Below, in pieces: positions 13,311 through 30,255 of a DNA stretch of 64,000 nt. Under the pieces are notes generated by a model. It made no database searches and was not told the origin of the DNA. It was given only the letters and a program-made list of their open reading frames with translations. Within the stretch, counting starts at the first letter, position 1; each line of letters starts with the position of its first letter. The position numbers and the translations under genes were made by a program. This stretch comes from a bacterium. GTDB lineage: Bacteria; Vulcanimicrobiota; Vulcanimicrobiia; Vulcanimicrobiales; SCRA01. Location of the stretch: positions 1 to 64,000 of the forward strand of contig SCRI01000047.1 in NCBI GenBank assembly GCA_004298675.1. Reading direction: 5' to 3'.

Positions 13311-15056
13311 TTATCCTGCCGGGAGCGCGTGTTCTGCGTGCAGCAGTGTAACGCGTCCGGCAGTGCCGTCGACGGCGGCAAGCAGCGGCCCGGTGAAATC
13401 GAACGCGGCTCCCGCGTCGCAGCCGACGACGGCGGGGACGGAAAGGGAGCGCGCTACCTCGATGAAATGGGCGCTGGGGCCGCCGCCGACGCTGATCAGC
13501 GCAGCGGCGTTCCAGAGCAGCGGCGCGTACCCCGGAAGTGGGTACGGCACCACCAACACCCCTCTGCGCGCCGGGCGCGGGCTATCGGGCCGCGCGGCAA
13601 ACCAGGCGCTGCCGGCACCGATACCCGGTGCCGCTGGCGTACCTGAGTACACGTTGCCGTTCGCCGCCACGGTTAGATAGACGAAGGGCTCCCAACCCTC
13701 GCGCGCGGCAGCCGTTCGCGATCGCGTGAGGTGCGGGCGCGCCAAGGCGCGCTCGAGGTCATTCACGCTCGTGCGCCAGACGTCGTCTATCTGCGCGAAC
13801 AATCCGGCCTCCACCAGCCCTTGACCGAGGCCGCGCAGCAATGCCACGAGGCGCACGCCTTGCGTGATGTTGGGCAGGTTCCCCGCGCCCAGCGTCCGCA
13901 GCGCCGCTTCCCGCAGTCCGTCGCGCAACACCGCGAGCGCCTCGGTTGCCTTCCGCGCGCGCTCAACACCGCGGTGACCGGAGTGGTCCCAGGTAGCTGC
14001 CGTTAGCCTGGCCGCAATGGCCTGTGCCTCTGCAAAGGCATCCGCTGGATCCGCGGTGGCTACGGGCGTCACCGCGGCAGGCGCGGGAAAGTCGGCCGCT
14101 CCCACTGCCCACGGGAGCACCAACGCATCGCCGAGCGGGCCACCGTACTGTGTTGCCAGACGAGCGATGCGCACCGCTACCGGCACGGCGAACGCGGGCG
14201 CGGATGCCGGGGTCTCGTTCCGGCGTTCCAACTTCGGAAGCGGTGCCGCAGGACGCGCTTGCAGGAGCAGTACGCCTCGCTCAGGCGCCCAGCCCCATTC
14301 GATCAAGTCGTCCTCGAAGGCAGCGTGTACTGCGTGCGCGATGCTCGCGACTTCCCGGAAGATCGACGCGTCCACATCGGCCAACTCGGCGGGTGCCTGT
14401 ACGGCACCGTCGGCCGTCACGACCACGCGGTATCCCGGCACCCAGCCGCCGAGGAGGTTCGCGGGCGAGCCGCGCGTCACCGTGACGATCGTGGTGCCGG
14501 CGCCGGCGAGCGCCGCCACTCCGGCTACGGCAAAGGATGCGGCGGGTTGGATCAGCACAGCTAGGCGCTGTCCTGCGGGGGTGATGCCGAGCTCCTCGCA
14601 GCGCTCGATGACGTCGCGCGAGAAGGCCGAGGCCCAGCAGCCGCGGATCGCCGTCCCAAGATCTGCCGGCGCCACGCCTACGTATGACGTGTAGGCCCCG
14701 GCCCACGCGGCATCGAGTTCTAGAGCGCTCGACGAGCGCACCACGAGCGACGCTCCCAAAGGCTGCGTCGCTGCATGCAATTCCATCATCAGGGCGGGAT
14801 CCAACTCTGCGCCCATGATGGCGAGCCTGGCTCCACCGCTGCCGCGTGTAACGGCCGCCGCCGCGCCGAGTGCCAGCGCGCCCTCCGCCTCGCAGGCCGG
14901 GATCACCACACCCTGCAACGCGGGCAACCCGAGTCTGCGCGCCTGCGCTAGACGTGCAGCCTTGGCTCCGACGGTGTCGGACGCCGGCACCTCCACCGCA
15001 TCGTCCAACACAACGACCCGGCGCGTGACTTGGCCGCGAGGACGGGGAGAAGCCAC
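13311..15056 (-). CDS. Compact PEP-synthase / rifampin-phosphotransferase-like dikinase
   Basis: A 581-aa protein. The N-terminal ATP-grasp part (about 10-290) has VGAKAARLAQARRLGLP, VRSSSALELDAAWAGAYTS, VLIQPAASF and a final LLQARPAAPL, as in PEP synthase and rifampin phosphotransferase. The C-terminal swivelling domain contains GGPSAHFIEVARSLSVPAVV, with the phospho-acceptor His in the expected place. The middle ~200 residues are divergent and the PEP-binding TIM barrel is missing. The order ATP-grasp, variable domain, His domain is that of rifampin phosphotransferase, but it is about 280 residues shorter. The GTG at 15056 lies 5 bp after the M24 gene stop, so it is co-transcribed with it. 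The small-molecule substrate is unknown. Confidence 0.75.
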   Translation of the reverse strand: MASPRPRGQVTRRVVVLDDAVEVPASDTVGAKAARLAQARRLGLPALQGVVIPACEAEGALALGAAAAVTRGSGGARLAIMGAELDPALMMELHAATQPLGASLVVRSSSALELDAAWAGAYTSYVGVAPADLGTAIRGCWASAFSRDVIERCEELGITPAGQRLAVLIQPAASFAVAGVAALAGAGTTIVTVTRGSPANLLGGWVPGYRVVVTADGAVQAPAELADVDASIFREVASIAHAVHAAFEDDLIEWGWAPERGVLLLQARPAAPLPKLERRNETPASAPAFAVPVAVRIARLATQYGGPLGDALVLPWAVGAADFPAPAAVTPVATADPADAFAEAQAIAARLTAATWDHSGHRGVERARKATEALAVLRDGLREAALRTLGAGNLPNITQGVRLVALLRGLGQGLVEAGLFAQIDDVWRTSVNDLERALARPHLTRSRTAAAREGWEPFVYLTVAANGNVYSGTPAAPGIGAGSAWFAARPDSPRPARRGVLVVPYPLPGYAPLLWNAAALISVGGGPSAHFIEVARSLSVPAVVGCDAGAAFDFTGPLLAAVDGTAGRVTLLHAEHALPAG

Positions 15057-15061
15057 GTGCT

Positions 15062-16297
15062 CTAGCCGCAGACGGTGATCTCTTTGACTGGGAACGTGGA
15101 GATCAGCTCGGTGCGGTCTTCGTGAACGATGAGCATCTCCTCGAGACGGACGCCGAAGTCGTGGACCTTGCCGTGTTGCGTCTCCAGCGCAAAGACCATT
15201 CCAGGCTCGATGACCTGAGGAAAGTCCAACGACCAGATGCGTGAGATCACCGGCATGTCGTATTGCGCCAAGCCCAAGCCATGACCCCAGAGATTCGCCG
15301 CGGCCTGATCCTCGTCTTCGTAGCCCCAGGTCTCCTGGGCGGAAGGCCACTTGGAGGCGATGTCGCGCGTGGTCGCGCCGGCTTTGACGGCGCCGATGGC
15401 GTCGTAGAGCCACTTGTAGGCGAGATCATAGTAGCGCTTGTGCTCGTCGGTAGGCTTCCCGCCCACGCAGTACGTGCGGTAGTAGCACGACTTGAAGCCG
15501 TTCCACGTGAGAGCGGCTAGATCGATGATCACCAACTCGCCTGGCCGGATGATGCGGTCGGAGAAGTTGCGCCAGTTCGGCCACGCGTTGGGACCGGAGG
15601 AGACGATGACGTCCTCCACGTCTTCCATGCCCGGAATGTTGTAGAGGTACTGCATCCCAAACGCCGTGACTTGATTCTCGGTCAGGCCGGGTTTGAGCAT
15701 CTTGGAGAATTCGTAGTGCAGCGCATCGCCGATGGCGCCGACGATACGCATCGCTTCGTGCTCGTCCTTATTCTTGACGGCGCGCGCCTGCATCATCGGC
15801 GTCATCCCGTCGGTCCACTTGATCCCGGCCTTCTCAAAGGCTCTAATCATGTTGATGTCGATGAAGTCGACGCCCAGGGGCTGGTCTTTTACACCCGCTT
15901 CCTCCAGTGCGTCGAGCAGCGCCTTGACGAACTTGTCGACTTGCGTGGCCGAGGCGGGACCGGCGGCCCCTTTGATCCAGGCAAACGAGTGCCGGATGTT
16001 CTCCGGCTTGAGCCAGGGAGAGTGACGTGCCACGTGGATGCCGATGTCGCCCTGCTCGAAGAGGATCGGCTCTTTGCCCTCCACCAGGACCGCATAACGC
16101 AGTCCCGGCTTGAGGCGATTCCAGCCCGGGGTGAGCGTCGAGGTGATGTACCTGACGTTCTCGTCGTACATGCACAGCATGGCGCCTAGGCCATGGGTGC
16201 GCATGGCCGCACGCGCGCGCTCCAAGCGGTGCTCGCGCATGCGCTGCCAGTTGATCCGCTCTTGCCAATCGGTACCGACACTACCGAACGAAGCCAT
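15062..16297 (-). CDS. M24 (pita-bread) metallopeptidase family protein, altered metal site
   Basis: A 411-aa protein of the Xaa-Pro aminopeptidase / creatinase / DddP fold. The N-domain (about 1-170) is followed by a catalytic-like domain with VSSGPNAWPNWRNFSDR, IIDLAALTWNGFKSCYYRTY, WGHGLGL, FALETQHG and GVRLEEMLIV. The first Asp, the GHG His and both Glu ligands are present, but the second Asp (normally GYxSDxTR) is Cys in GFKSCYYR. The domain arrangement recalls the DMSP lyase DddP as well as creatinase-type enzymes. The ATG has GAGGAG upstream. It is first in an operon with the dikinase, under a TetR-operator promoter. The substrate is unknown. Confidence 0.8.
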   Translation of the reverse strand: MASFGSVGTDWQERINWQRMREHRLERARAAMRTHGLGAMLCMYDENVRYITSTLTPGWNRLKPGLRYAVLVEGKEPILFEQGDIGIHVARHSPWLKPENIRHSFAWIKGAAGPASATQVDKFVKALLDALEEAGVKDQPLGVDFIDINMIRAFEKAGIKWTDGMTPMMQARAVKNKDEHEAMRIVGAIGDALHYEFSKMLKPGLTENQVTAFGMQYLYNIPGMEDVEDVIVSSGPNAWPNWRNFSDRIIRPGELVIIDLAALTWNGFKSCYYRTYCVGGKPTDEHKRYYDLAYKWLYDAIGAVKAGATTRDIASKWPSAQETWGYEDEDQAAANLWGHGLGLAQYDMPVISRIWSLDFPQVIEPGMVFALETQHGKVHDFGVRLEEMLIVHEDRTELISTFPVKEITVCG

Positions 16298-16339: not shown

Positions 16340-16355
16340 TTTATCTTTCGATAAA
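16340..16355. promoter_or_regulatory. TetR-type operator, copy 1
   Basis: The 16-bp palindrome TTTATC-TTTC-GATAAA overlaps the -10 box of the leftward promoter for the M24/dikinase operon. Its exact reverse complement occurs at 17219-17234 on the other side of the TetR gene. Perfect 6-bp half sites with a 4-bp centre suit a TetR dimer. That the neighbouring TetR binds it is inference from position and duplication. Confidence 0.8.
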
Positions 16356-16445: not shown

Positions 16446-17198
16446 GTGAGCAAAGGAGCGTCGACCCGTCCCAAGAGCCGCCAACCAGGCACGGCCGCGC
16501 GTAAAGCCCCGGGTGCGCAGCCCAAGCCCAAGCGCCTGCCGCCGGACGAGCGTGAGCGTCTGATCGTGCGTGAGGCCGTGGCATTCTTTGCCGCGCGCGG
16601 CTTCGAGGGTCAGACCCGGGAGCTGGCGAGACGCTTAGGGATAACCCAGCCGTTGCTCTACCGGTACTTCCCGAGCAAGGAGGCACTCCTCGACCGGGTC
16701 TATCAAGAGGTGTACCTCAACCGCTGGAATCCACATTGGGAGGATATCCTCGAGGACCGTACGCGCCCGCTGGAGGATCGCATCGTCGAGTTCTACAGCG
16801 ACTATGCGCGTGCGGTACTGACGTACGAGTGGATCCGGATCTTCATGTTCTCGGGCCTGCGCGGTATGGATCTCAACGGGCGCTACCTCACCGTGGTCCG
16901 CGACCGCATCTTCGCGCGCGTCATCCGTGAGATCCGGTTCGAAAACGCGCTGCCCTCACCCGCGGAGGTACCGATCAGCGAGGCGGAGTTCGAGCTAGTC
17001 TGGTCATTGCATGCCAGCATATTCTATATCGGGATCCGGAAATGGATCTATGGCCTTACCATCCCTGACGACGTCTCGGCGGTGGTCGTGGCGTTGACGA
17101 CGGCATTCATCGAGGGCGTCCCGGCCGTCGTGGCACGGCTCACCGGCGCGACCGCTACGCCGCGCGCGAGGGCGGCGGCACGGCGCCGTACCCCTTGA
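16446..17198 (+). CDS. TetR family transcriptional regulator
   Basis: A 250-aa regulator. After a basic N-terminal tail, the helix-turn-helix is clear: IVREAVAFFAARGFEGQTRELARRLG is split across about residues 39-65, followed by ITQPLLYRYFPSKEALLDRVY. The C-terminal ligand domain is all-helical with aromatic residues (YEWIRIFMFSGLRG, FELVWSLHASIFYIGIRKW). GTG 16446 is the likely start; GTG 16440 is also possible and neither has a good ribosome binding site. It sits between two operons whose promoters carry an identical palindrome, so it probably represses both until an effector binds. Its TGA lies inside the -35 box of the downstream promoter. The effector is unknown but is likely the transported or degraded compound. 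Confidence 0.88.
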   Translation: MSKGASTRPKSRQPGTAARKAPGAQPKPKRLPPDERERLIVREAVAFFAARGFEGQTRELARRLGITQPLLYRYFPSKEALLDRVYQEVYLNRWNPHWEDILEDRTRPLEDRIVEFYSDYARAVLTYEWIRIFMFSGLRGMDLNGRYLTVVRDRIFARVIREIRFENALPSPAEVPISEAEFELVWSLHASIFYIGIRKWIYGLTIPDDVSAVVVALTTAFIEGVPAVVARLTGATATPRARAAARRRTP

Positions 17199-17223
17199 CA
17201 AGCGTCTGGACTTCATGTTTTAT
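17195..17223 (+). promoter_or_regulatory. Promoter of the SBP-ADH operon
   Basis: TTGACA (17195-17200), a 17-bp spacer, TTTTAT (17218-17223). The box order, spacer length and -10 sequence are the same as in the leftward promoter at 16351-16379. The -35 box overlaps the TetR stop codon. Confidence 0.78.
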
Positions 17224-17234
17224 CGAAAGATAAA
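17219..17234. promoter_or_regulatory. TetR-type operator, copy 2
   Basis: TTTATC-GAAA-GATAAA, the exact reverse complement of the palindrome at 16340-16355. It covers the -10 box of the rightward promoter, so bound repressor would block RNA polymerase. Both copies also share the following AATAA context. Confidence 0.8.
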
Positions 17235-17310: not shown

Positions 17311-18579
17311 GTGCACCATTCGCAACGCTCTCGGGCCACTCTGGTACGATCGTTCTCACTCGCGGCCGTCTTAGCGGCCAGTGTAGCGCTGGCCGGGACG
17401 ACGCCGGCGCTTGCCGCCGACCAGGCCCCGCTCAAGGTTGGCTTCATCTCATCGTTGAGCGGCTACTTCGCCGCTCCCGGCAAGTACATGGAGGAGGGCC
17501 TCAAGCTCTACCTCCAGGAGCACGACTACACGATCGCCGGACGCAAGATCGTGCTCGACATCGCGGACGACCAAGGGAACCCCGCGGTTGGCCTCACCCA
17601 GTTGCGCAGGCTCGTCGAACAAGATCACGTCGACGTGATCTTCGGCCCGCTCTCGGCCGCAGTAGGCTCGGCCATGGCGACCTATCTCGACGCCCACAAG
17701 ATGCCCGCGGTTTATCCGATCGTCTCCTCCGATGACCTCACCCAGCGCACGCCGGCGGCATATGTCGTGCGAACGGGCTGGACGAGCAGTCAGACCACAC
17801 AGCCGCTTGGCGACTATGCCTACAAGACGTTGAAATATCGCAAGGTAGCGACGATCGGATACGATTTCTCGTTCGGTTGGGAGAGCATCGGAGGCGCGGT
17901 CGCCACGTTCCAAGACGATGGCGGCAAGGTCGTCAAGCAGATCTGGACGCCGCTGTCCACGACCGACTTCTCACCGTATCTCTCGGAACTCCCTCGTGAC
18001 GTCGATGCGGTCTTCTGTAGCTATTCGGGCTCGCAGGCCGTCAACTTCATGAAACAGTACAAGGCCTTCGGCCTGAAGATACCGTTGGTCTGTCAGGGTA
18101 ACAGCACCGACGAGAGCACGCTCCAAGCCACCGGATCGGCTGCCCTTGGCACCGTCACGGCCTTGCAGTACAGTGCCGCGCTCGACACGACCACGAACAA
18201 GAAGTTCGTCGCCGCGTACACCAAGGCGTACGGACATGGGCCTTCATACTACGGCGAGGGCACCTACGTCGGGGCGATGGTGTTGGCCGGCGGAATCGAG
18301 GCGCTGCACGGCAACGTCTCGGATCCCGCCGCCTTCGTGAAGGCGCTGCGCAGCGTCAATCTCACCAATGCACCGCGTGGTTCCGTGACCTTTGATGCCT
18401 ACGGTAATCCGGTGGAAAACGTCTACATTCGCAAGGTCGAAGACGTTGGCGGCCAGCTCGCGAACGTCGTGATCAAGATCGATCGCAACGTGTCGCAGTT
18501 CTGGACGTACGACCCCGCCGCGTTCTTACGGCACCCGGTGTATTCGCGCAATTATCCGCCTTGCAACGATTGTAAGTAG
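17311..18579 (+). CDS. LIV-type ABC transporter substrate-binding protein (SBP1)
   Basis: A 422-aa exported protein. The Arg-rich start and hydrophobic stretch SFSLAAVLAASVALAGTTPALAA form a signal peptide. The mature part is a type I periplasmic binding fold (LivJ/Peripla_BP_6): PLKVGFISSLSGYFAAPGKY, RRLVEQDHVDVIFGPLSAAV, TIGYDFSFGWESIGG. It ends HPVYSRNYPPCNDCK, with a CxxC tail shared by SBP2. The GTG start follows GAGGAGG at proper distance. It has its own TetR-operator promoter. The nearest encoded permease is livFGMH at 24.6-27.9 kb. The ligand is not known; amino acids, amides and aromatic acids are all carried by this family. Confidence 0.9.
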   Translation: MHHSQRSRATLVRSFSLAAVLAASVALAGTTPALAADQAPLKVGFISSLSGYFAAPGKYMEEGLKLYLQEHDYTIAGRKIVLDIADDQGNPAVGLTQLRRLVEQDHVDVIFGPLSAAVGSAMATYLDAHKMPAVYPIVSSDDLTQRTPAAYVVRTGWTSSQTTQPLGDYAYKTLKYRKVATIGYDFSFGWESIGGAVATFQDDGGKVVKQIWTPLSTTDFSPYLSELPRDVDAVFCSYSGSQAVNFMKQYKAFGLKIPLVCQGNSTDESTLQATGSAALGTVTALQYSAALDTTTNKKFVAAYTKAYGHGPSYYGEGTYVGAMVLAGGIEALHGNVSDPAAFVKALRSVNLTNAPRGSVTFDAYGNPVENVYIRKVEDVGGQLANVVIKIDRNVSQFWTYDPAAFLRHPVYSRNYPPCNDCK

Positions 18580-18590
18580 CGGAGGCAGCG

Positions 18591-19595
18591 ATGCGCGCGA
18601 TGGTACTGGAGTCGTTCGGCGCGCCGCTGCAGTTGCGTGAGTTGCCGGACCCGGTGCCGGGTCCCGGCGAGGCGCTCGTACGGGTGCAGGCGTGCGGAGT
18701 CTGCGCCAGCGATCTCAAGCTCGTCTCGGGCGCGCTGGCTGGGACGCCGTTGCCGCACGTGCCCGGTCACGAGATCGCGGGCGTGGTGGCGGCGTTGGGC
18801 CCGGGCGTGTCGTCTCCCAGAGTGGGCGAACGCGTGGCGTGTTATTTCTATCTCTCGTGCGGCCAGTGCCGCAACTGCCGCGCGGGCCGCGGAACCGTAT
18901 GCTTGGCATCGGCTGGACGCATCGGATTCGAGCTGGACGGTGGCCTAGCGGAGCTGGTGCGCGTGCCGGCGGCGTTGTGTCTCCCCGTGCCCGAGGCCGT
19001 TATCCCGGAGGCGGCCGCCGTCGCCATGGATGCGATCGCCACGCCGTACCACGCTCTCGTGACGCGCGGCCGCCTCGCCGCCGCGGAGACGGTCGCCATC
19101 GTGGGCGTGGGTGGCCTAGGTCTTCATGGCGTCGAGCTCGCGCACTGCGCCGGTGCGCAGGTGATCGCCATCGACGTCGCCGAGGAGCGGCTCGCGCTGG
19201 CGCGCGAGTTGGGAGCCGACCTGACCGTGCGCGCCGGCTCCGCGCAGTGGCCGGCTCCTAGTCTCGTCGCCGATCTCGTGCTCGACACGGCGGTTAGCTC
19301 GCAGACGCTCGCGGGAGACCTGGCCCTGCTGCGCCCAGGGGGGCGTCTGGTGCTGGTTGGCTACAAGCCCGGATTGACGGCCGGCTGGGACACGGCTGCG
19401 CTGGTGCTGAACGAGATCACCGTGTTGCCTGCCCGCGCCGCGGGGCGCGACGAATGCGAGCGCGTGCTCGACCTGCTGGCGCGCAGGTGCATCCGCGCCG
19501 TGATCGATCGGCGGTATGAGCTCCAAGCCGCCAATCAGGCCTTCGAAGCATTACGCGGCGGCGCGCTCAACGGCCGCGCGGTCGTGGCAGCCTAG
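18591..19595 (+). CDS. Zinc-dependent alcohol dehydrogenase
   Basis: A 334-aa MDR enzyme. The catalytic zinc site is Cys38 (CGVCASD), His60-Glu61 (GHE) and a downstream acidic residue; the structural zinc site is CGQCRNCRAGRGTVC with four Cys. The Rossmann motif is VGVGGLGLHG. It oxidises an alcohol to an aldehyde, or the reverse, with NAD(P). It follows SBP1 after 11 bp and is probably in the same TetR-controlled transcript. An aldehyde dehydrogenase lies 1.7 kb downstream, which would complete oxidation to the acid. Its TAG overlaps the convergent stop in CTAG. Confidence 0.9.
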   Translation: MRAMVLESFGAPLQLRELPDPVPGPGEALVRVQACGVCASDLKLVSGALAGTPLPHVPGHEIAGVVAALGPGVSSPRVGERVACYFYLSCGQCRNCRAGRGTVCLASAGRIGFELDGGLAELVRVPAALCLPVPEAVIPEAAAVAMDAIATPYHALVTRGRLAAAETVAIVGVGGLGLHGVELAHCAGAQVIAIDVAEERLALARELGADLTVRAGSAQWPAPSLVADLVLDTAVSSQTLAGDLALLRPGGRLVLVGYKPGLTAGWDTAALVLNEITVLPARAAGRDECERVLDLLARRCIRAVIDRRYELQAANQAFEALRGGALNGRAVVAA

Positions 19596-20224
19596 CCGTG
19601 GGGAATTGGAGTGAGCTCGGCTGCGACCTCTTCCCAGCGCATAACCCGCCCGAGGCAGATCTGCATCAGCTTCAAGGCCATGGCATGGGCTTCGGGACCG
19701 TCCATCGTCTCCACGCATTCCTCGAGCAGCACCAGCTCGAGGTCGCGGTTCACGATCTCGAAGGCATTGCACAACACGCAGCTGTTCGTGTTGATGCCGG
19801 CCAACAGCACCGTGCGCGCTCCGTAGTCGCGCAGCACGAACTCGAGATCGGTATGCAAGAAGGCGCTATAGCGCTTCTTCGTGTTTACGACGGCGTCGCC
19901 GGGCCGGTACAACGCCGGGATGATCTGCGTGCCGGGCGAGTGCTCCAGATTGTGCTCCGCACTACGCGCTCGCGTGCCCGAGCGCTTGGAGGCCCAGAAG
20001 GGGTTGCTCTCGGCCTCGGACGAGCCCCGGTAAACGGTGACCACGTGCACCACGGGTATTCCGGCAGCCCTCGCACGGTCGAAGATGCGCGCGCTGCGCT
20101 CGACGACGGCGCGGGCACGCTCGGCAGCCACGGGCATCGTGGCAACGGCCGGGTCCAGATGACCTCGGTGCATATCGATCGCGACGAGAACCGGGCGTTC
20201 GAGCTTGCGTTCAATCGCGGCCAT
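19592..20224 (-). CDS. Isochorismatase-like cysteine hydrolase
   Basis: A 210-aa protein with the catalytic triad of the family: Asp17 (LVAIDMH), Lys116 (NTKKRYSAF) and Cys149 (INTNSCVLC), plus the usual cis-peptide region VLLAGINTNS. Relatives are amidases such as nicotinamidase, N-carbamoylsarcosine amidase and ureidoacrylate hydrolase. A hydrolase acting on an amide or carbamoyl group fits the nearby LIV transporters and amidohydrolase. It is divergent from the amidohydrolase gene with only 42 bp between. Confidence 0.85.
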   Translation of the reverse strand: MAAIERKLERPVLVAIDMHRGHLDPAVATMPVAAERARAVVERSARIFDRARAAGIPVVHVVTVYRGSSEAESNPFWASKRSGTRARSAEHNLEHSPGTQIIPALYRPGDAVVNTKKRYSAFLHTDLEFVLRDYGARTVLLAGINTNSCVLCNAFEIVNRDLELVLLEECVETMDGPEAHAMALKLMQICLGRVMRWEEVAAELTPIPHG

Positions 20225-20266: not shown

Positions 20267-21271
20267 ATGCGGTGTCTTGACGTTCATGCTCATCTCATTC
20301 CCGAGTCGGTCGTCGATCGGCTCCTGAAGGAGGGTGCCGCGCATACCAATCAGGCCGGCACGCTGATCTCCCTCCCGCCGTCGATCAGCGGCGTGCGCGA
20401 AGCCGTGGCAACGCCGTTCACGCGGGAGCTGCGCGACATCGAGGTGCGTCTCGCCGCCAACGACGAATACGGCATCGACCGTCAAATCATCTCGGTGCCG
20501 CCGTTCTATTTCGGCTATCGGCAGAGTCCCGAGGCCGGCCGTGCGTATGCGCGCGCCGCCAACGACGATCTAGCCAAGGCCGTAGCCGCCCACGCCGACC
20601 GTTTCTTTGCGTTCGCGACGGTGCCACTGCAGGATCCGCCGGGCGCTGTGCGCGAGTTGGAGCGTTGCCTGGGCGAACTTGGTTTCGTGGGCGTGGAGAT
20701 TGGCTCGAATATCGCCGGCACCGAGCTGGACGATCCTTCGCTCGAGCCGTTCTGGGCCGCCTGCGCGCGCCTGGGCGCGCTCATCTTCATCCATCCGCAT
20801 CACGTGGTGGGCGGTGACCGGCTCGGCGCCTATTACCTCTCGAACTTCTTTGGCAACCCCAGCGACACGGCTTTGGGCGCGGCGCGGCTGATCTTCGGCG
20901 GCGTGCTGGAGCGCCACGACCTCAAGATCGTGCTGGCTCATGCCGGCGGCGCGCTGCCGCAGTTGATCGGACGCTTCGATCACGGCTGGAGCGTGCGCCC
21001 GGAAGCCAAATCGCTGCCGCTGCCGCCGAGCACGTACTTCAAGCGGTTGTACTTCGACACGATCGCTCACGACGACGTCATTCTCACGGATTTGATCCAC
21101 CGGGTTGGCGCCGGACACGTGGTCGTCGGCACGGATGCACCGTATGACATGGGCATCCCGGACCCGCGCGCGCTGCTGACCCGGCTGCCGCTCGACGAGC
21201 GCGAGCATGCGGCGATCCTGGGGGGCAATCTCGCGGCGTTGCTGCGTCTCGAGACGGCGCGCAAAGGATAG
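20267..21271 (+). CDS. Amidohydrolase-2 family protein (ACMSD-like decarboxylase/hydrolase)
   Basis: A 334-aa TIM-barrel metal enzyme. The HxH motif is DVHAHLIP (His7, His9). Further ligands are the His in FIHPHHVVGGDRLG, the His in VLAHAGGALPQLIGRFD and the Asp in VVVGTDAPYDMG. This set matches the ACMSD / gamma-resorcylate decarboxylase group, which decarboxylate or hydrolyse carboxylated aromatic or muconate compounds. It stands 7 bp before the aldehyde dehydrogenase, so the pair likely converts an acid to a semialdehyde and on to an acid. A weak GAGGA ribosome site precedes the ATG. Confidence 0.85.
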   Translation: MRCLDVHAHLIPESVVDRLLKEGAAHTNQAGTLISLPPSISGVREAVATPFTRELRDIEVRLAANDEYGIDRQIISVPPFYFGYRQSPEAGRAYARAANDDLAKAVAAHADRFFAFATVPLQDPPGAVRELERCLGELGFVGVEIGSNIAGTELDDPSLEPFWAACARLGALIFIHPHHVVGGDRLGAYYLSNFFGNPSDTALGAARLIFGGVLERHDLKIVLAHAGGALPQLIGRFDHGWSVRPEAKSLPLPPSTYFKRLYFDTIAHDDVILTDLIHRVGAGHVVVGTDAPYDMGIPDPRALLTRLPLDEREHAAILGGNLAALLRLETARKG

Positions 21272-21278
21272 GGTAGTC

Positions 21279-22787
21279 ATGGAGATCGCAGGAGAGCTCG
21301 AGGTTCACCAGCATTTCATCGACGGGGCGCCCTCGCCCGGTGCGGGTGGCAGGACGTACGATCTCGTCGATCCAGCAACGGGCGAGGCCGCCGGAAGGGC
21401 CGCTCGCGGCGATGCCGACGACGTCGCCCGCGCCATCGCCGCGGCGCGTCGCGCGTTCCAGGATGGGCGTTGGTCGGGATTGGGAGTGGCGCGGCGCGCG
21501 CGCATACTCAATGCCTTCGCGGACGCCATCGAAGCGGCGCTTCCGCACTTGAGCGACGTGGAGACGCGCTATACCGGCCGCCCCATCCGCGAGATGCGCG
21601 CGCAGCTCTCGCGTCTACCGGAGTGGTACCGCTACTTTGCAGCGGTCGCGCGCTCGCGGGATGATACCGTCACGCCGTTCGAAGGCCCCTACCACAACTA
21701 TGCGCGGCGCGTGCCCATTGGCGTGGTCGCGCAAGTGACGCCGTGGAACCACCCGCTGCTGATCCTCGCCAAGAAGCTGGCACCAGCCTTGGCGGCCGGT
21801 AACTGCGTGGTCATCAAACCCTCGGAGTTCACCCCGGTCACCACGCTGATGCTCGCGCAGATCGCGAAGGATGCCGGCGTGCCCGACGGCGTGATGAACG
21901 TGGTGACGGGCTATGGCTCCGAAGCGGGAGCCGCGCTCACGCACTCCAAAGGCATCGACAAGATTGACCTCACCGGCGGAACGGAGACCGGGCGTGCCGT
22001 GGCTCAGGCCGCGGGTGCCAACCTCATCCTGTGCTCGTGCGAGTTGGGTGGCAAGGCGCCCATGCTCGTCCTGCCCGGCGCCGATCTCGACGCGGCGGCC
22101 GCGGGCGCGGTATTCGCCGCATTCATTGCCGCCGGCCAGACCTGCATCGCGGGTACGCGCATCCTCGTGCAGGAGCGGATGATCGAGCCCTTCCTGCAGC
22201 GCTTCCTTCCACGTGTGCGGTCGCTGCGTCTGGGTCTGCCGCAAGCGCTGGAGACGCAGTTGGGTCCGCTGGTAGCGGAGCGCCAACTGGCGCGCACGCA
22301 GGAGTACGTGGGGATCGCCATTGCTGAGGGCGCCACGGTTGCCTGCGGCGGCAAACGCCCCGACGATCCGGTGCTGGCAGGCGGCTTCTTCTACGAACCG
22401 ACCGTGCTGACCGGGGTCACCAACGACATGCGCGTGGCGCAGGACGAGATCTTTGGGCCGGTGACGTGCGTGATCGGGTACCGCGATGAAGATCATGCCG
22501 TATCCATCGCCAACGACATTCGCTACGGTTTGGGTGCCTCGGTGTGGACCTCCGATGCCGCCCAGGGCATGCGCGTCGCCCATCGTCTGGAGTGCGGCAT
22601 CGTGTGGATCAACGATCATCACCGCATCGATCCGTCTTCGGTGTGGGGCGGCTTCAAAGCGTCGGGGATCGGTCACGAGAACGGCCACGAGGCGTATCGC
22701 GAGTACACCAAGATACAGAGCATCGTCGTCAATCTCGGCGCGCCGCCCGACTGGTACGGCACGACCGACGTCGTTCGCTTGAGCTGA
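21279..22787 (+). CDS. NAD(P)-dependent aldehyde dehydrogenase
   Basis: A 502-aa ALDH-superfamily enzyme. Landmarks are VTPWNHPLLILAKKLAPALA, the substrate Asn region (TPWNHP), CELGGKAPMLV with the general-base Glu, GQTCIAGTRILVQ with the nucleophile Cys, and DEIFGPVTCV. It oxidises an aldehyde to its acid. The ATG at 21279 has no strong ribosome site; it is coupled to the amidohydrolase 7 bp upstream. A paralogue at 31251-32816 shares most motifs, so two related aldehydes may be handled in this region. Confidence 0.93.
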   Translation: MEIAGELEVHQHFIDGAPSPGAGGRTYDLVDPATGEAAGRAARGDADDVARAIAAARRAFQDGRWSGLGVARRARILNAFADAIEAALPHLSDVETRYTGRPIREMRAQLSRLPEWYRYFAAVARSRDDTVTPFEGPYHNYARRVPIGVVAQVTPWNHPLLILAKKLAPALAAGNCVVIKPSEFTPVTTLMLAQIAKDAGVPDGVMNVVTGYGSEAGAALTHSKGIDKIDLTGGTETGRAVAQAAGANLILCSCELGGKAPMLVLPGADLDAAAAGAVFAAFIAAGQTCIAGTRILVQERMIEPFLQRFLPRVRSLRLGLPQALETQLGPLVAERQLARTQEYVGIAIAEGATVACGGKRPDDPVLAGGFFYEPTVLTGVTNDMRVAQDEIFGPVTCVIGYRDEDHAVSIANDIRYGLGASVWTSDAAQGMRVAHRLECGIVWINDHHRIDPSSVWGGFKASGIGHENGHEAYREYTKIQSIVVNLGAPPDWYGTTDVVRLS

Positions 22788-22812: not shown

Positions 22813-24555
22813 ATGATGCAAGAGACGAGCACGCTGCGCGCCGGTATGCGTATCGACTGGGACGTTCCCATCACGATGGACGACGGCATCGTATTGCGTG
22901 CCGACGTGTTCCGGCCGGCTGCCGCCGGACGCTACCCGGTCATCCTTTCCTATGGACCCTACGGGAAGTGGCTCATCTTCCAAGACGGTTACGCGACTGC
23001 TTGGGAGAAGATGGTCACCAACTATCCCGATGTTGCCATGGGTTCGAGCAATCGTTATCAGAGCTGGGAGATCGCCGATCCCGAGAAGTGGGTGCCGGAC
23101 GGGTATGCGTGTCTGCGAATAGATTCGCGCGGCGCCGGACGCTCGCCGGGCTTTCTCGAATGCTGGTCGCCGCGTGAGACGCAAGATCTCCATGACTGCG
23201 TCGAGTGGGCCGCGGCCCAGGCCTGGAGCAACGGAAAAGTCGGGATCAGCGGCATCTCGTACTACGCGATGAATCAGTGGCAGGTGGCGTCGAATGCGCC
23301 GCCGCACCTGGCCGCGCTGTGCGCGTGGGAAGGGGCGGCCGATTTCTACCGCGACCTGGGACACCACGGTGGTATCTTTTGCACGTTCTCACCCAACTGG
23401 TACGACATGCAGGTCAAGTCCGTGCAGCATGGCCTGGGGACGCGCGGTTACCGCAGCGGCATGACCGGAGATTGGGTCTCCGGTCCGGCGACGCTGACTT
23501 CCGAGGAGCTTGCGGCAAGCCGTTCCGACTTAGGCGGTGACATGCGCAGCCACGTGCTGGACGACGATTACTGGCACGCGCGCTCCGCGGATTGGTCGAA
23601 GGTGACCGTGCCGTTCCTCTCCGCGGGGAACTGGGGCGGCCAAGGGCTGCATCCGCGCGGCAACACCGAGGCGTTCATGCGGGCGGCCTCGTCGCAGAAG
23701 TGGCTCGAGATGCATGGTGGTGAGCACTGGACGTCGTTTTACACCGACTACGGCATCGCGCTCCAGAAGCGCTTCTTCGGCCATTTCCTCAAAGGCGAAG
23801 ACAACGGCTGGAGCGCGCAACCGCGTGTTGTGCTGAACGTGCGTCACGTCGATCGCTTCGTGGAGCGGGCCGAGGAAGACTGGCCGATCCCGCGCACGCA
23901 GTGGCAGCGCCTCTATCTGCGGCCGGATGCGTTGGCGCTGCAGGCGCAGCCGCCCGCTGAAGGCTCCACGGTCTCGTTCGACGCTCTTGGCGACGGCGTC
24001 ACGTTTCTAACCACGCCGTTCGAGTCGGAGACGGAAATCACGGGGCCGCTGGCGGCGAAGCTCTGGGTCTCCTCTTCCACCGTGGACGCCGATCTGTTTC
24101 TGGTGGTGCGCGTCTTTGCTCCCGATCTCACGGAAGTGGTCTTTCAAGGTGCGCTCGATCCGCATACTCCGGTGGCCCAAGGTTGGCTGCGTGCTTCGCA
24201 TCGTAAGCTCGACCCGCTCCTCTCGCTGCCCTACCGCCCTTATCACGCGCACGACGAACTGCAGCCACTCACACCCGGCGAGAGCGTGGAAGTCGACGTC
24301 GAGATCTGGCCTACCAGTATCGTGATACTGGCAGGCTGCCGGCTGGGCCTCAGCGTGCGCGGGCGCGACTACGTGTATTCCGGCGGCAGCGGCGGTAGGC
24401 TCTCCAACATGAAGAACGAGTTCACCGGCGTGGGCCCGTTCTTGCACGACGATGCACTCAACCGTCCCGCTGCCGTGTTCGGCGGAACGACGACGCTGCA
24501 CGTGACTGCGGGGCACGCAGCCTACCTGCTGCTGCCGGTGATTCCAACGCGCTGA
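22813..24555 (+). CDS. CocE/NonD family (S15) acyl hydrolase
   Basis: A 580-aa alpha/beta hydrolase. The nucleophile elbow is GISGISYYAMNQWQ (GxSYxxxxQW as in cocaine esterase), the RIDSRGAGRSPG loop gives the oxyanion region, and the His is near HWTSFY. The C-terminal ~220 residues form the jelly-roll typical of the PepX/CocE family (RVFAPDLTEVVFQGALDP, SVRGRDYVY). It would hydrolyse an ester or amide. AAGGAG precedes the ATG-ATG pair at 22813. It closes a rightward group (amidohydrolase, ALDH, CocE) and converges on livF with a 28-bp gap. Confidence 0.88.
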   Translation: MMQETSTLRAGMRIDWDVPITMDDGIVLRADVFRPAAAGRYPVILSYGPYGKWLIFQDGYATAWEKMVTNYPDVAMGSSNRYQSWEIADPEKWVPDGYACLRIDSRGAGRSPGFLECWSPRETQDLHDCVEWAAAQAWSNGKVGISGISYYAMNQWQVASNAPPHLAALCAWEGAADFYRDLGHHGGIFCTFSPNWYDMQVKSVQHGLGTRGYRSGMTGDWVSGPATLTSEELAASRSDLGGDMRSHVLDDDYWHARSADWSKVTVPFLSAGNWGGQGLHPRGNTEAFMRAASSQKWLEMHGGEHWTSFYTDYGIALQKRFFGHFLKGEDNGWSAQPRVVLNVRHVDRFVERAEEDWPIPRTQWQRLYLRPDALALQAQPPAEGSTVSFDALGDGVTFLTTPFESETEITGPLAAKLWVSSSTVDADLFLVVRVFAPDLTEVVFQGALDPHTPVAQGWLRASHRKLDPLLSLPYRPYHAHDELQPLTPGESVEVDVEIWPTSIVILAGCRLGLSVRGRDYVYSGGSGGRLSNMKNEFTGVGPFLHDDALNRPAAVFGGTTTLHVTAGHAAYLLLPVIPTR

Positions 24556-25291: not shown

Positions 25292-26070
25292 AGCTTCCCT
25301 CCAAGGTAGATCTCCTGGACCACCGGGTTGCCATGGATACTCTCCACCGATTCCTCCGCCACCACTCGTCCGTAGTGCAGGACCGTGATGCGCTCCACCA
25401 CGTTGAAGACGACGCTGAGATCGTGCTCGATCAGGATCATCGCCACGTCGCGGTGATACGCGCGCAGCATGTCCGTGACCAGCACGGCATCCGCGGCGGA
25501 AAGGCCCGCCGTGGGTTCGTCGAGCAGCAGCAGCTTGGGGCGTTGTGCCAGTGCCATCAGGATCTCGACTTGGCGTTGCTCGCCGTGCCCCAGCGCCCGC
25601 ACCAGCCAGTCCGCGCAATGGTCGAGTTGCACCTGCCGCAGCAGACGCAACGCCTCCTCGCGGAAGCCGCGATAGTGCGTTCGAGGCACGAAGCATTGGA
25701 AAGGCGTCGACGTAAGCGCCTGCAGGGAGAGCACCAAGTTCTCCACCACGGTCAAGCCGGGCAGCAAGGTGGTGGTTTGGAACGTGCGGGCTAGGCCGAG
25801 CCTGGCCCGGGCGTGCGGCGGCAGACGCGTGATCTCGCGTCCGTACAAGTGCACGTTTCCGGACGTGGGTGCAAGCTCGCCGGCGATCACGTTGAAAAGC
25901 GTGGTCTTGCCTGCGCCGTTGGGACCGATGATCCCGCGCCGCTCGCCATGACGCACGCAGAGTGCGACGTCGTCGAGCACGTGCAGGTTGCCGAAGCGCT
26001 TGGAGACGCCGCTGAGCTGCAGGCAAACCTCTATGCTAGACCTGGGATCAGGCACGGCAGCCACGCTCAT
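25288..26070 (-). CDS. livG: LIV-type ABC transporter ATP-binding protein LivG
   Basis: A 260-aa ATPase. Walker A is IIGPNGAGKTTLFNVIAG, followed by ARLGLARTFQTTTLLPGLTV as in LivG. The signature is ALGHGEQRQVEILMAL (a divergent LSxGEQ form) and Walker B is LLLLDEPTAGLSAAD. The internal ATG MSVAAVPDP overlaps the livM stop as ATGA. The much longer open frame upstream is an out-of-frame read-through of livM. Confidence 0.94.
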   Translation of the reverse strand: MSVAAVPDPRSSIEVCLQLSGVSKRFGNLHVLDDVALCVRHGERRGIIGPNGAGKTTLFNVIAGELAPTSGNVHLYGREITRLPPHARARLGLARTFQTTTLLPGLTVVENLVLSLQALTSTPFQCFVPRTHYRGFREEALRLLRQVQLDHCADWLVRALGHGEQRQVEILMALAQRPKLLLLDEPTAGLSAADAVLVTDMLRAYHRDVAMILIEHDLSVVFNVVERITVLHYGRVVAEESVESIHGNPVVQEIYLGGKL

Positions 26071-27089
26071 CGCTCTGGTCCTTCGCGCGGATTGAGTGCG
26101 GCGCTCGGCATGCTGCCGGCAGCCGGCGCCAAGGCGTGCCGGCTGCGCGCGCGTGCAGCCAGTTGTTTGACCAGGCCCACGATGCCATCCGGCGCGTACA
26201 TGACCGTCACGACGTAGACGGCTCCTAAGATGAGCACCCAGCGCTGGGTGATGTCGCTCAAGGCATTGCTGAGGAACACCAGGATGCCGGCTCCCAGCAG
26301 TGGGCCGATCAGCGTGCCCGTGCCGCCCAGGATCACCATGATGAGTATCTGGACCGTGGTGTCGAGACTTAGGCTGCCCGGCCCCACGAACTCGTTGTAG
26401 TAGGCGAAGAGTACGCCCGCCACCGCTGCGAACATCGCCGCGACGATCAGCGCCAAATACCGGAAGAGCCAGACGTTGTAGCCCAGAGCCGCCATGCGCC
26501 GCGGGCGCTCTCTTGCTCCCACCAGCACCAGACCGAACGGCGAGCGCACGATGAGTGTCAGCAAGGTGAGGCAGACGATCAGCGCGGTTAGGGAGAGGTA
26601 GTAGAAGCCGGCGTTGCCGGTGGTGTGGAACGGCCCCACGTCCACGCGCAGAAAACCCGTGATGCCGTTGTCGCCGCCGCTCATGGAAACCCATTGGTAA
26701 GCCAGTCCCCAAATGATCTCGTTGAGCGCCAGGGTGATGATGATAAAGCCCACGTCCTCGGCGCGCAGGGCGAGTGCGGCGAAGGCCGCGGCCGTGACCG
26801 CCGCCACCAGGATGGCGATCAGCAACGTCAGCCAGAAGTCCGTGAAATGGTAGCGCGTGGCGGCGATCGCTACCACGTAGGCTCCGATCCCGAAGAATGC
26901 CGCCTGCATGAAGCTGACGAGGCCGGTGAAGCCGACCAGTAAGTCGAGGCTCATGGCCAGGATGCCGTAGATCCACGTTTGAGTGAGCAGCGAGACGTAG
27001 AATGCCGGCAGCCCCAAACGTGGAATGGCGATCGCCAACAGCAGCAGGGCGCCGATGATCGCGACGTTGCTCCAAGGCCGGCCGGTCAA
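26067..27089 (-). CDS. livM: LIV-type ABC transporter permease LivM
   Basis: A 340-aa membrane protein with about nine hydrophobic segments, beginning VAIIGALLLLAIAIPRLGLP. SLDLLVGFTGLVSFMQAAFFGIGAY and LALRAEDVGFIIITLALNEI are LivM landmarks, and a cytoplasmic EAA-like loop is seen in LVGARERPRRMAALGYN. The start is TTG 27089, overlapping the livH stop as TTGA. The C-terminal ~30 residues are a polar tail. Confidence 0.93.
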   Translation of the reverse strand: MTGRPWSNVAIIGALLLLAIAIPRLGLPAFYVSLLTQTWIYGILAMSLDLLVGFTGLVSFMQAAFFGIGAYVVAIAATRYHFTDFWLTLLIAILVAAVTAAAFAALALRAEDVGFIIITLALNEIIWGLAYQWVSMSGGDNGITGFLRVDVGPFHTTGNAGFYYLSLTALIVCLTLLTLIVRSPFGLVLVGARERPRRMAALGYNVWLFRYLALIVAAMFAAVAGVLFAYYNEFVGPGSLSLDTTVQILIMVILGGTGTLIGPLLGAGILVFLSNALSDITQRWVLILGAVYVVTVMYAPDGIVGLVKQLAARARSRHALAPAAGSMPSAALNPREGPER

Positions 27090-27949
27090 GTCTTCCTCCC
27101 AAACAGACCTTGCGGGCGGATCGCCATGATGATGGCCACCGGCAAGAAGATGGTGAAGTAGGAGAGCTCGGGGAAGAGTGCCCGGCCAAACGTGTTGACC
27201 AGCCCGATGAGCATGCTGGCGATAAACGCGCCCTCCAGGCTTCCCATGCCGCCGATGATCACGATGGCAAAAGCCAACGGCAGCAACTCGCCGTCTAGCC
27301 CTGGATACGCGCTGGTGATGGGGCCGCCCAAATAGCCGCCGAGCCCGGCCAGAAACGCACCCAGTGCGAAAACGAAATAGAAGGCGCGGTTGACGTTGAT
27401 GCCCAGGCCGCGGGTCATCTCCTCGTCGTCGACGGCGGCACGGATGATGGCGCCGAACTTCGTTCTCCGCTGAAAGAGGAGCAGGCCCGCGGCGATGACC
27501 GTGCTGACCACGACGAGCGCCAGCCAGTACTCGGGGAAGACGAGGTTGCCGAAATGGATCGACGCGGCAAAGACTTTCGGCGGGGCGATCGACTGCGGAT
27601 CGCCTCCCCAGATCGCTAGCGAGCCGTCGTCGATGATCAGTGCGAAGCCCAGGGAGAGCAAGAGCGCCGTCAGCGGATTGGCATGATAGCGATGGAGGAA
27701 GATGCCGTAGATCGCCAGGCCCACGACCGTCGCCACGATGCCGCCGGCTAGTCCGGAGACCCAGAAGTTCACGCCGTGAAGCCCGAGCGAGAGCCCGACG
27801 TAGGCTCCCAGCAGATAGAATGCCGTCTGCGCGAGGTTGATGATCCGCATCAGGCCGAAAATCAGCGTGAAGCCAGCCGCGATGAGGAACAGGAGACTGC
27901 CGTGCGCAAGCCCGCCGAGGACGTTTTGCAGGTAGAATGCGTTGCCCAA
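27086..27949 (-). CDS. livH: LIV-type ABC transporter permease LivH
   Basis: A 287-aa membrane protein. LIAAGFTLIFGLMRIINLAQ at the N-terminus is the LivH hallmark (GLxLIxGxMxxINxAHG-like), and AAVDDEEMTRGLGINVNR is the cytoplasmic ATPase-contact loop. About eight membrane segments are visible. TTG 27949 is the start. It follows the 2-hydroxyacid dehydrogenase gene by 18 bp in the same direction, so the transporter is probably co-transcribed with SBP3 and that enzyme. Confidence 0.93.
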   Translation of the reverse strand: MGNAFYLQNVLGGLAHGSLLFLIAAGFTLIFGLMRIINLAQTAFYLLGAYVGLSLGLHGVNFWVSGLAGGIVATVVGLAIYGIFLHRYHANPLTALLLSLGFALIIDDGSLAIWGGDPQSIAPPKVFAASIHFGNLVFPEYWLALVVVSTVIAAGLLLFQRRTKFGAIIRAAVDDEEMTRGLGINVNRAFYFVFALGAFLAGLGGYLGGPITSAYPGLDGELLPLAFAIVIIGGMGSLEGAFIASMLIGLVNTFGRALFPELSYFTIFLPVAIIMAIRPQGLFGRKT

Positions 27950-27967: not shown

Positions 27968-28957
27968 TTAGGATGACGCCGACCCGAACGCCTCCGGGTT
28001 GACGAGGTGGGGTGGGCGCTCGCCCCGCAGGAAGGCCGTCACGTTGTCGACGATGGCGGCAGCGATCGCCTCGCGTGTCTCGAGCGTCGCGCTGCCCACG
28101 TGCGGCGTCAGCACGACGTTGTCGAGGCCGAGCAGGCCGGCGTGGACTTCGGGCTCGCGTTCGTAGACATCCAGTGCCGCGCCGGCGATGCTGCGCGTGC
28201 GTAGCGCCTCCACCAGCGCCGCCTCGTCAACGATGGGTCCGCGGGCGGTGTTGACCACGTAGGAAGTCGGCTGCATGAGGGCGAGTTGCGCGGGGCCGAT
28301 CAAGTGATGCGTGCCGGGATGGTAGCTTGCGTGCAGCGAGACGAAATCGCTCTCGCGCAGCAACGCCTCGAGAGCGCGGTATTCGACCTGCAGTTCGGTC
28401 TCCTCGGAGGGCGCAAGCGCCTGGCGTTTGTTGTAGAGGACGCGCATCCCAAAGCCGTGTGCCCGGCGCGCCACCGCGCGCCCGATGTCGCCGAAACCCA
28501 CGATGCCGATGGTCTTGCCCGCCACCATGCGCCCCGCGAAGTGGAGCGATTGCGAGCCGGGGAATGTGCCCGCGCGGATGCCGCGGTCGGCTTCCGGTAT
28601 GCGTCGCGCCACGGCCATGAGAATCGCCCAATGGAGGTCGGCCGTGGCTTCGGTCACGATGCTGGGGATCGTGGTGACGGCAATGCCGCGAGCGGTGGCG
28701 CGGGCGACGTCGATATTCGCGGGGTGGATGGCTCCGTTGGCGATGAGGCGCAGGCTAGTACCGGCGTCCACCACCTCGGCATCGATCCGGTCGTGCAGCA
28801 GGCAGCAGAGCACGTCGGCGCGTGCCGCCTCCTGCAGCAGCCGATCGCGTGGGAGGATCCGGCTGGAGTCGGGGTTGACGGCAACCTCGACTCCAGGGAG
28901 GGCGCGCAGGCGCCGGAGTGGAGCCTCGACGACCGGCTGCGTGACGAAGATGCGCAT
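27968..28957 (-). CDS. D-isomer-specific 2-hydroxyacid dehydrogenase
   Basis: A 329-aa NAD(P)-dependent enzyme that reduces 2-keto acids or oxidises D-2-hydroxyacids (glyoxylate/hydroxypyruvate reductase type). The Rossmann motif is IVGFGDIGRAVARR. The catalytic residues are Arg in NTARGPIVDE, Glu in DVYEREPE and His in TPHVGSAT. The ATG at 28957 lies 8 bp after the SBP3 stop; a longer upstream frame is an artefact of overlap with SBP3. Its place between SBP3 and livH suggests a role on the imported compound. Confidence 0.9.
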   Translation of the reverse strand: MRIFVTQPVVEAPLRRLRALPGVEVAVNPDSSRILPRDRLLQEAARADVLCCLLHDRIDAEVVDAGTSLRLIANGAIHPANIDVARATARGIAVTTIPSIVTEATADLHWAILMAVARRIPEADRGIRAGTFPGSQSLHFAGRMVAGKTIGIVGFGDIGRAVARRAHGFGMRVLYNKRQALAPSEETELQVEYRALEALLRESDFVSLHASYHPGTHHLIGPAQLALMQPTSYVVNTARGPIVDEAALVEALRTRSIAGAALDVYEREPEVHAGLLGLDNVVLTPHVGSATLETREAIAAAIVDNVTAFLRGERPPHLVNPEAFGSASS

Positions 28958-28965
28958 GGGGCCTC

Positions 28966-30255
28966 TTAGGGCGCCTTGACGCCTTGGAACGTCGGCGAAT
29001 AGACAGGCTGCTTGAGATACTCCTGCGGCGCCAGGTTCCAGAACTGCGAGACGTTCGGATAGGCCTTGACCACGACGTTCCAGGTCTTGCCGTACTTCGC
29101 TAGCGGACCGCTCACGGTCTCCACGCGCCGCACGTAGACGTTCTCGACGGGGTTGTTGTACGTATCCAGTTTCATCGGACCGAACGCCGAATCCGCGAGA
29201 CGTACCGAGCGCACGGCGGCGAGAAAGGCGTCGGTGTCCTCGACGTTTCCGTGCACCTTGAGCATCGCGCTGTCGATCCACTGCGCCGCCGTGAAGAAGG
29301 CTGCCGCCATGTACGATGGCAGCTTGCCCGTCTTGGCCGCGAAGTTCGTGTCGAACTCTTGGGTGGCAGCGGCATCGCGGCCCTCGGCGAAGTGGCCGAA
29401 GCTGACGATCCCGTCAACCACGTCCGCCGGCAGCGTGCGGATGTTCGACTGATCGGTGGTAGTCTCGTTGGCGATCAGCGGAATCTTGTCTTTGAGTCCG
29501 AACGCGTGCCACTGCTGCAGGAAGTGCACGGCATCAGCGCCCACCATCTCGACGAAAACGGCGTCCGGCTTCGCCGCCTCGATCTGTGAGAGGTAGGGAC
29601 TGTAGTCGGTGTTTCCCAGCGGAGCCCAGATCTGCTTGAGTACTTTGCCGCCTCTAGCGGTGAAGGTCTGGTTGAAACCGCCGACGTTCTCATAGCCGAA
29701 GGCATAGGCATCGGCGATGGTCACCACCGTGCGATAGCCCTTGTCGTAGGCCCAATCGCCGGCCGGATGCGTGGGCTGGCTGCTGGTCCAGCCGGCCACG
29801 CGGATCACGTAGGGATTGGCTTTGCGCTGCGTCAAGTCGTCCGCGGAGACCGTCGGCTCCAGGAACGGAATCTTGTGCTGAATGGCGTACGGCGCCACCG
29901 CCAGGCCCTCGTTGGCCAGGTAAGGTCCAACGATCATCTGGACGTGGTCCTGCTCCACGGCTTGCCGCGCCACGGTGAGCGCACGCGCCGGATTCGAGCC
30001 GGTATCGTAGAAGGTGGACTCGATCCTGCGCCCATCCACACGCTCGCCGTGCTCCGCCCAGTAGAGCTTCCAGGCGGTGACCATGTCGTGACCGGCGGCG
30101 GCGGCGGTGCCCGACTCTGAAGCCAGGACACCGATGCGGATCGGGGGCTGCTCCGCGCCGCGCGCGGAGGGCGCGGTCAGCGCGAGTACGGCGGCGCAGA
30201 CGGAAACGTACGCGGCGGTGCGGTGATGACGAAGAAAAACGAAAACCCGTCTCAT
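28966..30255 (-). CDS. LIV-type ABC transporter substrate-binding protein (SBP3)
   Basis: A 429-aa exported protein with a signal peptide (VSVCAAVLALTAPSARGAE). It shares the type I binding fold with SBP1 and SBP2 (IRIGVLASESGTAAAAGHD, RQAVEQDHVQMIVGPYLANE, VTIADAYAFGYENVGGFNQ, PVENVYVRRVE) but is more distant and lacks their CxxC tail. GGAGG precedes the ATG. It is directly upstream of the 2-hydroxyacid dehydrogenase and livHMGF, so it is the most likely cognate binding protein of that importer. Confidence 0.92.
   Translation of the reverse strand: MRRVFVFLRHHRTAAYVSVCAAVLALTAPSARGAEQPPIRIGVLASESGTAAAAGHDMVTAWKLYWAEHGERVDGRRIESTFYDTGSNPARALTVARQAVEQDHVQMIVGPYLANEGLAVAPYAIQHKIPFLEPTVSADDLTQRKANPYVIRVAGWTSSQPTHPAGDWAYDKGYRTVVTIADAYAFGYENVGGFNQTFTARGGKVLKQIWAPLGNTDYSPYLSQIEAAKPDAVFVEMVGADAVHFLQQWHAFGLKDKIPLIANETTTDQSNIRTLPADVVDGIVSFGHFAEGRDAAATQEFDTNFAAKTGKLPSYMAAAFFTAAQWIDSAMLKVHGNVEDTDAFLAAVRSVRLADSAFGPMKLDTYNNPVENVYVRRVETVSGPLAKYGKTWNVVVKAYPNVSQFWNLAPQEYLKQPVYSPTFQGVKAP

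Follow-up and report, generated by a model that had tools for sequence, protein, structure and literature searches.

A putative small-molecule dikinase encoded beside an M24-fold protein in several phyla

A protein of 581 amino acids from a member of the Vulcanimicrobiota (GenBank assembly GCA_004298675.1) is read here as a previously undescribed variant of the small-molecule dikinases, enzymes reported in connection with antibiotic resistance and, more recently, with the breakdown of phenolics. It is encoded within the first 64,000 nucleotides of contig SCRI01000047.1, hereafter the window, directly downstream of a gene for an M24-fold protein, and the data collected below point to the two proteins forming an undescribed catabolic module. 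From gene context and by analogy with characterised enzymes, we consider it probable, with a fair margin for error, that the dikinase acts on a small molecule in a pathway shared with the M24-fold protein, under TetR control shared with an importer. A literature search, conducted largely outside subscription journals, found no published description of the M24-dikinase pair.

Gene and predicted fold of the dikinase

The open reading frame (13311..15056, minus strand) starts with GTG at position 15056. Its product comprises an ATP-grasp domain (residues 11-276, approximately), a helical centre (277-466) and a swivelling phospho-histidine domain (467-573) carrying His530. Pfam models were matched by residues 27-182 (PPDK_N, E 2.8e-13) and 499-567 (PEP-utilizers mobile domain PF00391, E 6.5e-10), and no Pfam model of a TIM barrel matched the 581-aa chain, which stops after the swivelling domain. 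Structure prediction with AlphaFold using 11 homologues gave a model of mean pLDDT 78.1 and pTM 0.55, for which rifampin phosphotransferase (RPH) was the top match in a Foldseek search of the PDB (E 6e-19). Superposition with VIA-align covered 360 of the 581 residues with RPH entry 5hv1 (Z 24.7, rmsd 14.0) and 369 residues with 5hv3 (Z 24.5, rmsd 6.0). The isolated ATP domain of RPH aligned tightly with the model (Z 22.5, 2.7 Å over 256 residues), and it is therefore mainly in the two outer domains that the model and RPH agree. The domain order proposed in the first-pass annotation, with ATP-grasp, central and swivelling domains following one another as in RPH, is thus supported by Pfam and by the AlphaFold, Foldseek and VIA-align results, and the length of 581 aa and the absence of a PEP TIM barrel by the reading frame and Pfam; the structural comparison that it had suggested returned RPH as the best PDB match, in the outer domains only.

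RPH (PDB 5HV1; PMC4844700) shares with the window dikinase the succession of ATP-grasp domain, putative acceptor region and C-terminal swivelling domain, as well as the Lys, Arg and His of the first phosphoryl transfer. It differs in size, with approximately 865 aa against 581, and in its genomic partner.

The central region, of about 190 aa, was also modelled alone and was predicted to be helical (pLDDT 85.7, pTM 0.81). RPH again ranked first when this model was compared with the PDB in Foldseek, at E 3.4 and with nothing passing E 0.001, and a second look with VIA placed RPH entries at the top with a Z of 3.5. Profile alignment of the region with three RPH-like SAR202 proteins in hhalign covered 38 columns a little before the swivelling domain (E 0.007). 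For this centre, which looked unrelated in the first-pass annotation, the model and profile comparisons give only a hint that it may resemble the RPH domain that binds RIF, and the want of a confident fold match is compatible with such kinship. Conservation within the protein was lowest in the centre, with mean pairwise identity of 33% against 45% in the ATP-grasp and 47% in the swivelling domain.

The M24-fold partner and its pairing with two classes of dikinase

The M24-fold protein (15062..16297, minus strand; 411 aa) is DddP-like and the constant genomic partner of the dikinase. A gap of 5 nt separates its stop codon (15062-15064) from the start of the dikinase at 15056, and in several loci the two genes share 4-nt start/stop overlaps. 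Residues D259, C271, H339, E372 and E387 were invariant in 82 of 82 sequences, the window protein included, and occupy presumed metal-ligand positions of the M24 fold. Specific Asp residues of DddP are metal-binding. The best PDB match of the M24 protein, over its full length, was the DMSP lyase DddP (PDB 4RZY/4S00; E 1.6e-20); DddP has Asp where the window protein has Cys271, a Cys in 82/82 sequences, and another Asp of DddP stands opposite Ala261. With 94.9 bits of the 600 required, the protein falls below the cut-off of the NCBIfam DddP model. DMSP was considered as a substrate from the likeness to DddP and was set aside as unsupported. A partner so conserved probably handles one specific metabolite.

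A DddP-related branch of M24 proteins with a CYYR motif, in which Cys takes the place of a conserved Asp, includes the window protein (15062-16297), L117:8551-9783 and L123-L126. The L117 paralogue is encoded in the vicinity of a long-class dikinase. CYYR-motif paralogues also occur on plasmids of haloarchaea, Phaeobacter, Rhodococcus and Paenarthrobacter. All 37 plasmid records with M24 relatives were below 60% identity.

The recurrence of the pair was assessed by scanning genome contigs with the M24 alignment and using the 80 best loci out of 126 relatives, with adjacency judged by HMM matches across all ORFs and taxa taken from record titles; two loci duplicating G015 and G016 were omitted from pair counts, leaving 78. 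Within this best 80 of 126, a dikinase ORF on the same strand followed M24 in 62 of the 78 loci, and in 58 of the 64 where the contig continued for 1500 bases or more past M24. Phytoactinopolyspora halophila and Qaidamihabitans albus, both cultured, are among the carriers of the pair. M24 was the sole constant partner of the dikinase among the same best 80 of 126 loci. The first-pass annotation had asked whether the pair is conserved in other genomes, and at 58 of 64 roomy loci (best 80 of 126) it is kept, also in distant ones. Six roomy loci of the best 80 of 126 carried M24 with no adjoining dikinase, four actinobacterial and two from SAR202. All six actinobacterial genomes in which no dikinase was seen beside M24 (four roomy, two at contig ends) encode a long-class dikinase elsewhere. 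Genes for a zinc alcohol dehydrogenase and a D-2-hydroxyacid dehydrogenase precede these unlinked dikinases in 6/7 stretches from the six genomes, and an Amidohydrolase_2 gene does so in 5/7, stretch L120 beginning at the dikinase. At the two SAR202 loci there was ample room, and neither dikinase class adjoined M24; only PEP-synthase/RPH-like matches were found elsewhere.

Co-occurrence was also evident at the genome level. In a sample of 198 genomes from the family of G159, with thresholds of E <=1e-120 for M24 (26 genomes) and E <=1e-80 for the short dikinase (29 genomes), both genes were present in 25 genomes, M24 only in 1, the dikinase only in 4 and neither in 168 (Fisher p 1.7e-26, phylogeny being ignored). 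Across 149 genomes of the phylum of the window, the dikinase occurred in four, three of them from one genus, and the same four have a close M24 (82-100%). Seven further genomes of this phylum, with only an M24 paralogue of 36-39% identity, gave no dikinase match.

The dikinases fall into two classes. Long-class proteins were found in the window, G015, G016, G062 and Actinobacteria, and short-class ones in Proteobacteria, Rokubacteria, one Terriglobia and one SAR324 record. Most M24 relatives among the best 80 of 126 loci are paired with a short dikinase that has no central domain. Short-class proteins measure 423-456 aa (50 complete proteins; lengths depend on the start codons chosen) and consist of a full PPDK_N (2-313) and a swivelling domain, with about 18 residues between them and no acceptor domain. 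At 75-80% M24 identity, mean dikinase identity was 57% within the short class, 38% within the long class and 25% across classes; at equal M24 divergence the long class thus diverges much faster. Long-class pairs averaged 78.8% identity in M24 against 41.3% in the dikinase. An unrooted tree of the ATP-grasp and swivelling domains (33 sequences, 406 columns) resolved long, short and PEP-synthase/RPH-like groups with 100% support each, and hhalign matched the long class to the short at E 4e-29 versus E 9e-19 to RPH-like proteins. The hhalign values only lean towards the long and short classes being sisters.

As PMC12167813 describes them, the two-component phenolic dikinases HpeHI, PpsAB and CreHI have the same two catalytic domains and a catabolic setting, with the ATP-grasp domain separate and the swivelling domain fused to the acceptor domain. 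Unlike HpeHI/PpsAB, both classes described here carry ATP-grasp and swivelling domains in one chain. The 25-hydroxysteroid kinase was considered as a further relative and rejected, terms for a phosphohistidine-type kinase being absent from the accessible text of PMC8449060.

An alternative to the preferred reading, in which two enzymes share a pathway, is that of a split dikinase, whose phospho-His domain would dock on the M24 pocket and phosphorylate the substrate there, so that M24 would take over in trans the role that the TIM barrel has in PEP synthase or the RIF-binding domain in RPH. The short class, with its brief linker and no evident acceptor site, the constancy of M24 as partner in the best 80 of 126 loci, its far better conservation than that of the long-class dikinase, the low conservation of the central region and the 4-nt gene overlaps would all be in keeping with it. 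We nevertheless hold it to be unlikely. In several actinobacterial genomes the two genes lie apart, the central region of the long class could itself bind the acceptor, and the two SAR202 loci have M24 with no adjoining dikinase. Moreover, in four plasmid stretches (Rhodococcus, Phaeobacter, Halorussus and Paenarthrobacter) no annotated neighbour of the M24 paralogues, which are about 35-37% identical and have the same Cys, is a dikinase. Since both the SAR202 proteins and the plasmid paralogues occur in this way, the M24 fold probably works alone. It should be mentioned that the Halorussus stretch encodes an ATP-grasp-domain protein approximately 2.8 kb from the M24 paralogue.

Catalytic residues

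Residue counts were made on 15 long-class proteins (ten adjoining M24 and five unlinked) and, like the identities, on the 50 complete proteins of 55 short-class loci. Prior to these counts, L015, L057, L067, L068, L072 (masked N over the His) and L081 were omitted as incomplete, and L001-L005, L009 and L010 as duplicates of the G000, G015, G016 and G062 stretches. With residue roles taken from PMC4844700, equivalents of RPH Lys22, Arg117, Glu297 and His825 were present in 15/15 long-class dikinases, and that of Thr136 was Ser in all of them; the residues matching Lys22, Arg117 and Thr136 in the window protein are K32, R107 and S124, kept throughout the class. The acceptor histidine (H530) is preceded by Ala in all 15 proteins. 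Variant C580A of HpeH, with Ala before the catalytic His, was active with raised turnover, as stated in the Discussion of PMC12167813. A conserved Gln was also invariant throughout the long class; two positions past it, the Arg was found in 10/15 and is gone in 5/15. All 50 short-class proteins have the Lys, Arg, Glu, Gln, Arg and His. In the long class the nucleotide-lid motif is degenerate, with another sequence standing where the short class has GLG..GE..PD. Relatives devoid of the acceptor His, named beforehand as an observation that would speak against a dikinase, were encountered in neither class (His in 15/15 long and 50/50 short proteins).

The degenerate lid, the loss of Arg in five proteins and the fast divergence mean that the long class might have weak or altered activity. 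Taken further, the same features would suit a long class that has lost kinase activity and serves the M24 pathway as a phosphate-carrying or regulatory protein; we find this improbable, given that none of the 15 proteins departs from the Lys, Arg, Ser, Glu, Gln or acceptor His, a pattern that relaxed selection would not keep.

As regards PEP synthase and PPDK, the short class aligns with residues 5-460 of PEP synthase, spanning both catalytic domains, and the C-terminal PEP/pyruvate TIM barrel of these enzymes is missing. An RPH family search (101 relatives, E limit 1e-120) gave no matches, and when plasmids were searched with the short dikinase all matches were under 60% identity, mostly labelled PEP synthase among the matches listed. 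A frame homologous to the window dikinase is 73-74% identical in two congeneric genomes and 43% identical in another family, and because such frames occur in other genomes the gene is no assembly artefact; the suspicion of a PEP synthase truncated by assembly error gives way before the intact relatives seen in many genomes. A reading of the protein as a common RPH that inactivates antibiotics, or as a PEP synthase cut short, which its RPH domain order and its matches to NCBIfam PEP synthase and RPH models might suggest, is very improbable, because those matches are far under the cut-offs (33.3 of 999 bits for RPH model NF041857, 69.9 of 883 for the best PEP synthase model), the TIM barrel is absent, and intact relatives in other phyla stand in catabolic neighbourhoods.

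Regulation, neighbourhood and proposed pathway

A TetR-family regulator (16446..17198, plus strand; start codon inferred) is flanked on either side by identical palindromes. The first, TTTATCGAAAGATAAA, a putative TetR operator (16340..16355, minus strand), lies upstream of the M24-dikinase operon, and the second (17219..17234, plus strand) upstream of the transporter and dehydrogenase genes; shuffles of the window gave an expectation of 0. In the whole genome TTTATC-N4-GATAAA occurs in exactly two copies (16340 and 17219), and a one-mismatch copy once more. Two congeners (L006 and L007) retain both palindromes, which differ from the window sequence by a single mismatch at the most; the first palindrome has one mismatch in both congeners. 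The arrangement fits a TetR repressor that would control both divergent transcription units through the palindromes. For the proposal that dikinase and M24 are co-transcribed under TetR, the window offers the 5-nt gap and the flanking palindromes; in several actinobacterial genomes the two genes are unlinked.

Downstream of the second palindrome are genes for the periplasmic substrate-binding protein of an ABC importer (Peripla_BP_6; 17311..18579, plus), a zinc alcohol dehydrogenase of cluster 3, recurrent with the pair (18591..19595, plus), an isochorismatase-fold hydrolase (19592..20224, minus), an Amidohydrolase_2 family protein, also recurrent (20267..21271, plus), an aldehyde dehydrogenase (21276..22787, plus) and a recurrent CocE/NonD-family hydrolase (22813..24555, plus). 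Two branched-chain-type ABC permeases (26067..27949, minus) and a D-2-hydroxyacid dehydrogenase (27968..29281, minus), the commonest further partner family, follow. The catabolic region has a second Peripla_BP_6 binding protein (28966-30255) besides that at 17311-18579. A polysaccharide-deacetylase-fold gene is located at 30366-31241, and the same Pfam family occurs upstream of M24 in L064, L066 and L070.

Among the 46 loci of at least 12 kb, D-2-hydroxyacid dehydrogenase was found in 34, zinc alcohol dehydrogenase in 21, a 3-hydroxyisobutyrate-dehydrogenase-like protein in 18 and CocE in 14; the first, second and last of these families are represented in the window. FAA hydrolase, HisD-like, TctC, TauE and hydantoinase families also recur. 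Importers vary by locus, with a Liv-type ABC system in the window and TctC or TRAP elsewhere. CoA-transferase III and hydantoinase A/B genes directly follow the M24-dikinase pair in L028, L032 and L060, all gammaproteobacterial records. TauE/SafE exporter, short redoxin and HMGL-like genes stand upstream of actinobacterial M24 in L013, L016 and L011, which hints at sulfur chemistry. Hardly any neighbour gene scored above a cut-off by which a pathway could be named, and the recurrent families fit several possible substrates, so that no single substrate is named. Our best guess, from the nearby transporter types (Liv-type ABC, TctC and TRAP), is that the acceptor would be a small carboxylate.

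Returning to the preferred reading of a shared pathway, the chemistry may be outlined by analogy with RPH, PEP synthase and HpeHI. The ATP-grasp domain would bind Mg-ATP, and His530 of the swivelling domain would take the beta-phosphoryl group, forming pyrophospho-His that subsequently loses the gamma-phosphate. His530 would then hand its phosphoryl to a small organic acceptor, the products being AMP, Pi and the phosphorylated acceptor. The M24-fold protein presumably has this metabolite as its substrate too, whether ahead of phosphorylation or following it, and the D-2-hydroxyacid dehydrogenase, zinc alcohol dehydrogenase and hydrolases would carry the product on. TetR would control this set together with the importer, perhaps with induction by the substrate.

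By record titles, the M24-dikinase pair recurs in Actinobacteria, Proteobacteria, Rokubacteria and others. A dikinase of 425 aa with no acceptor domain raises the structural question of where the acceptor binds. Should the split reading be true, it would represent a third way of completing a dikinase, with the acceptor held in a separate M24 pita-bread protein, and an M24 protein with a D/C/H/E/E site would be used in several phyla to open a catabolic pathway.
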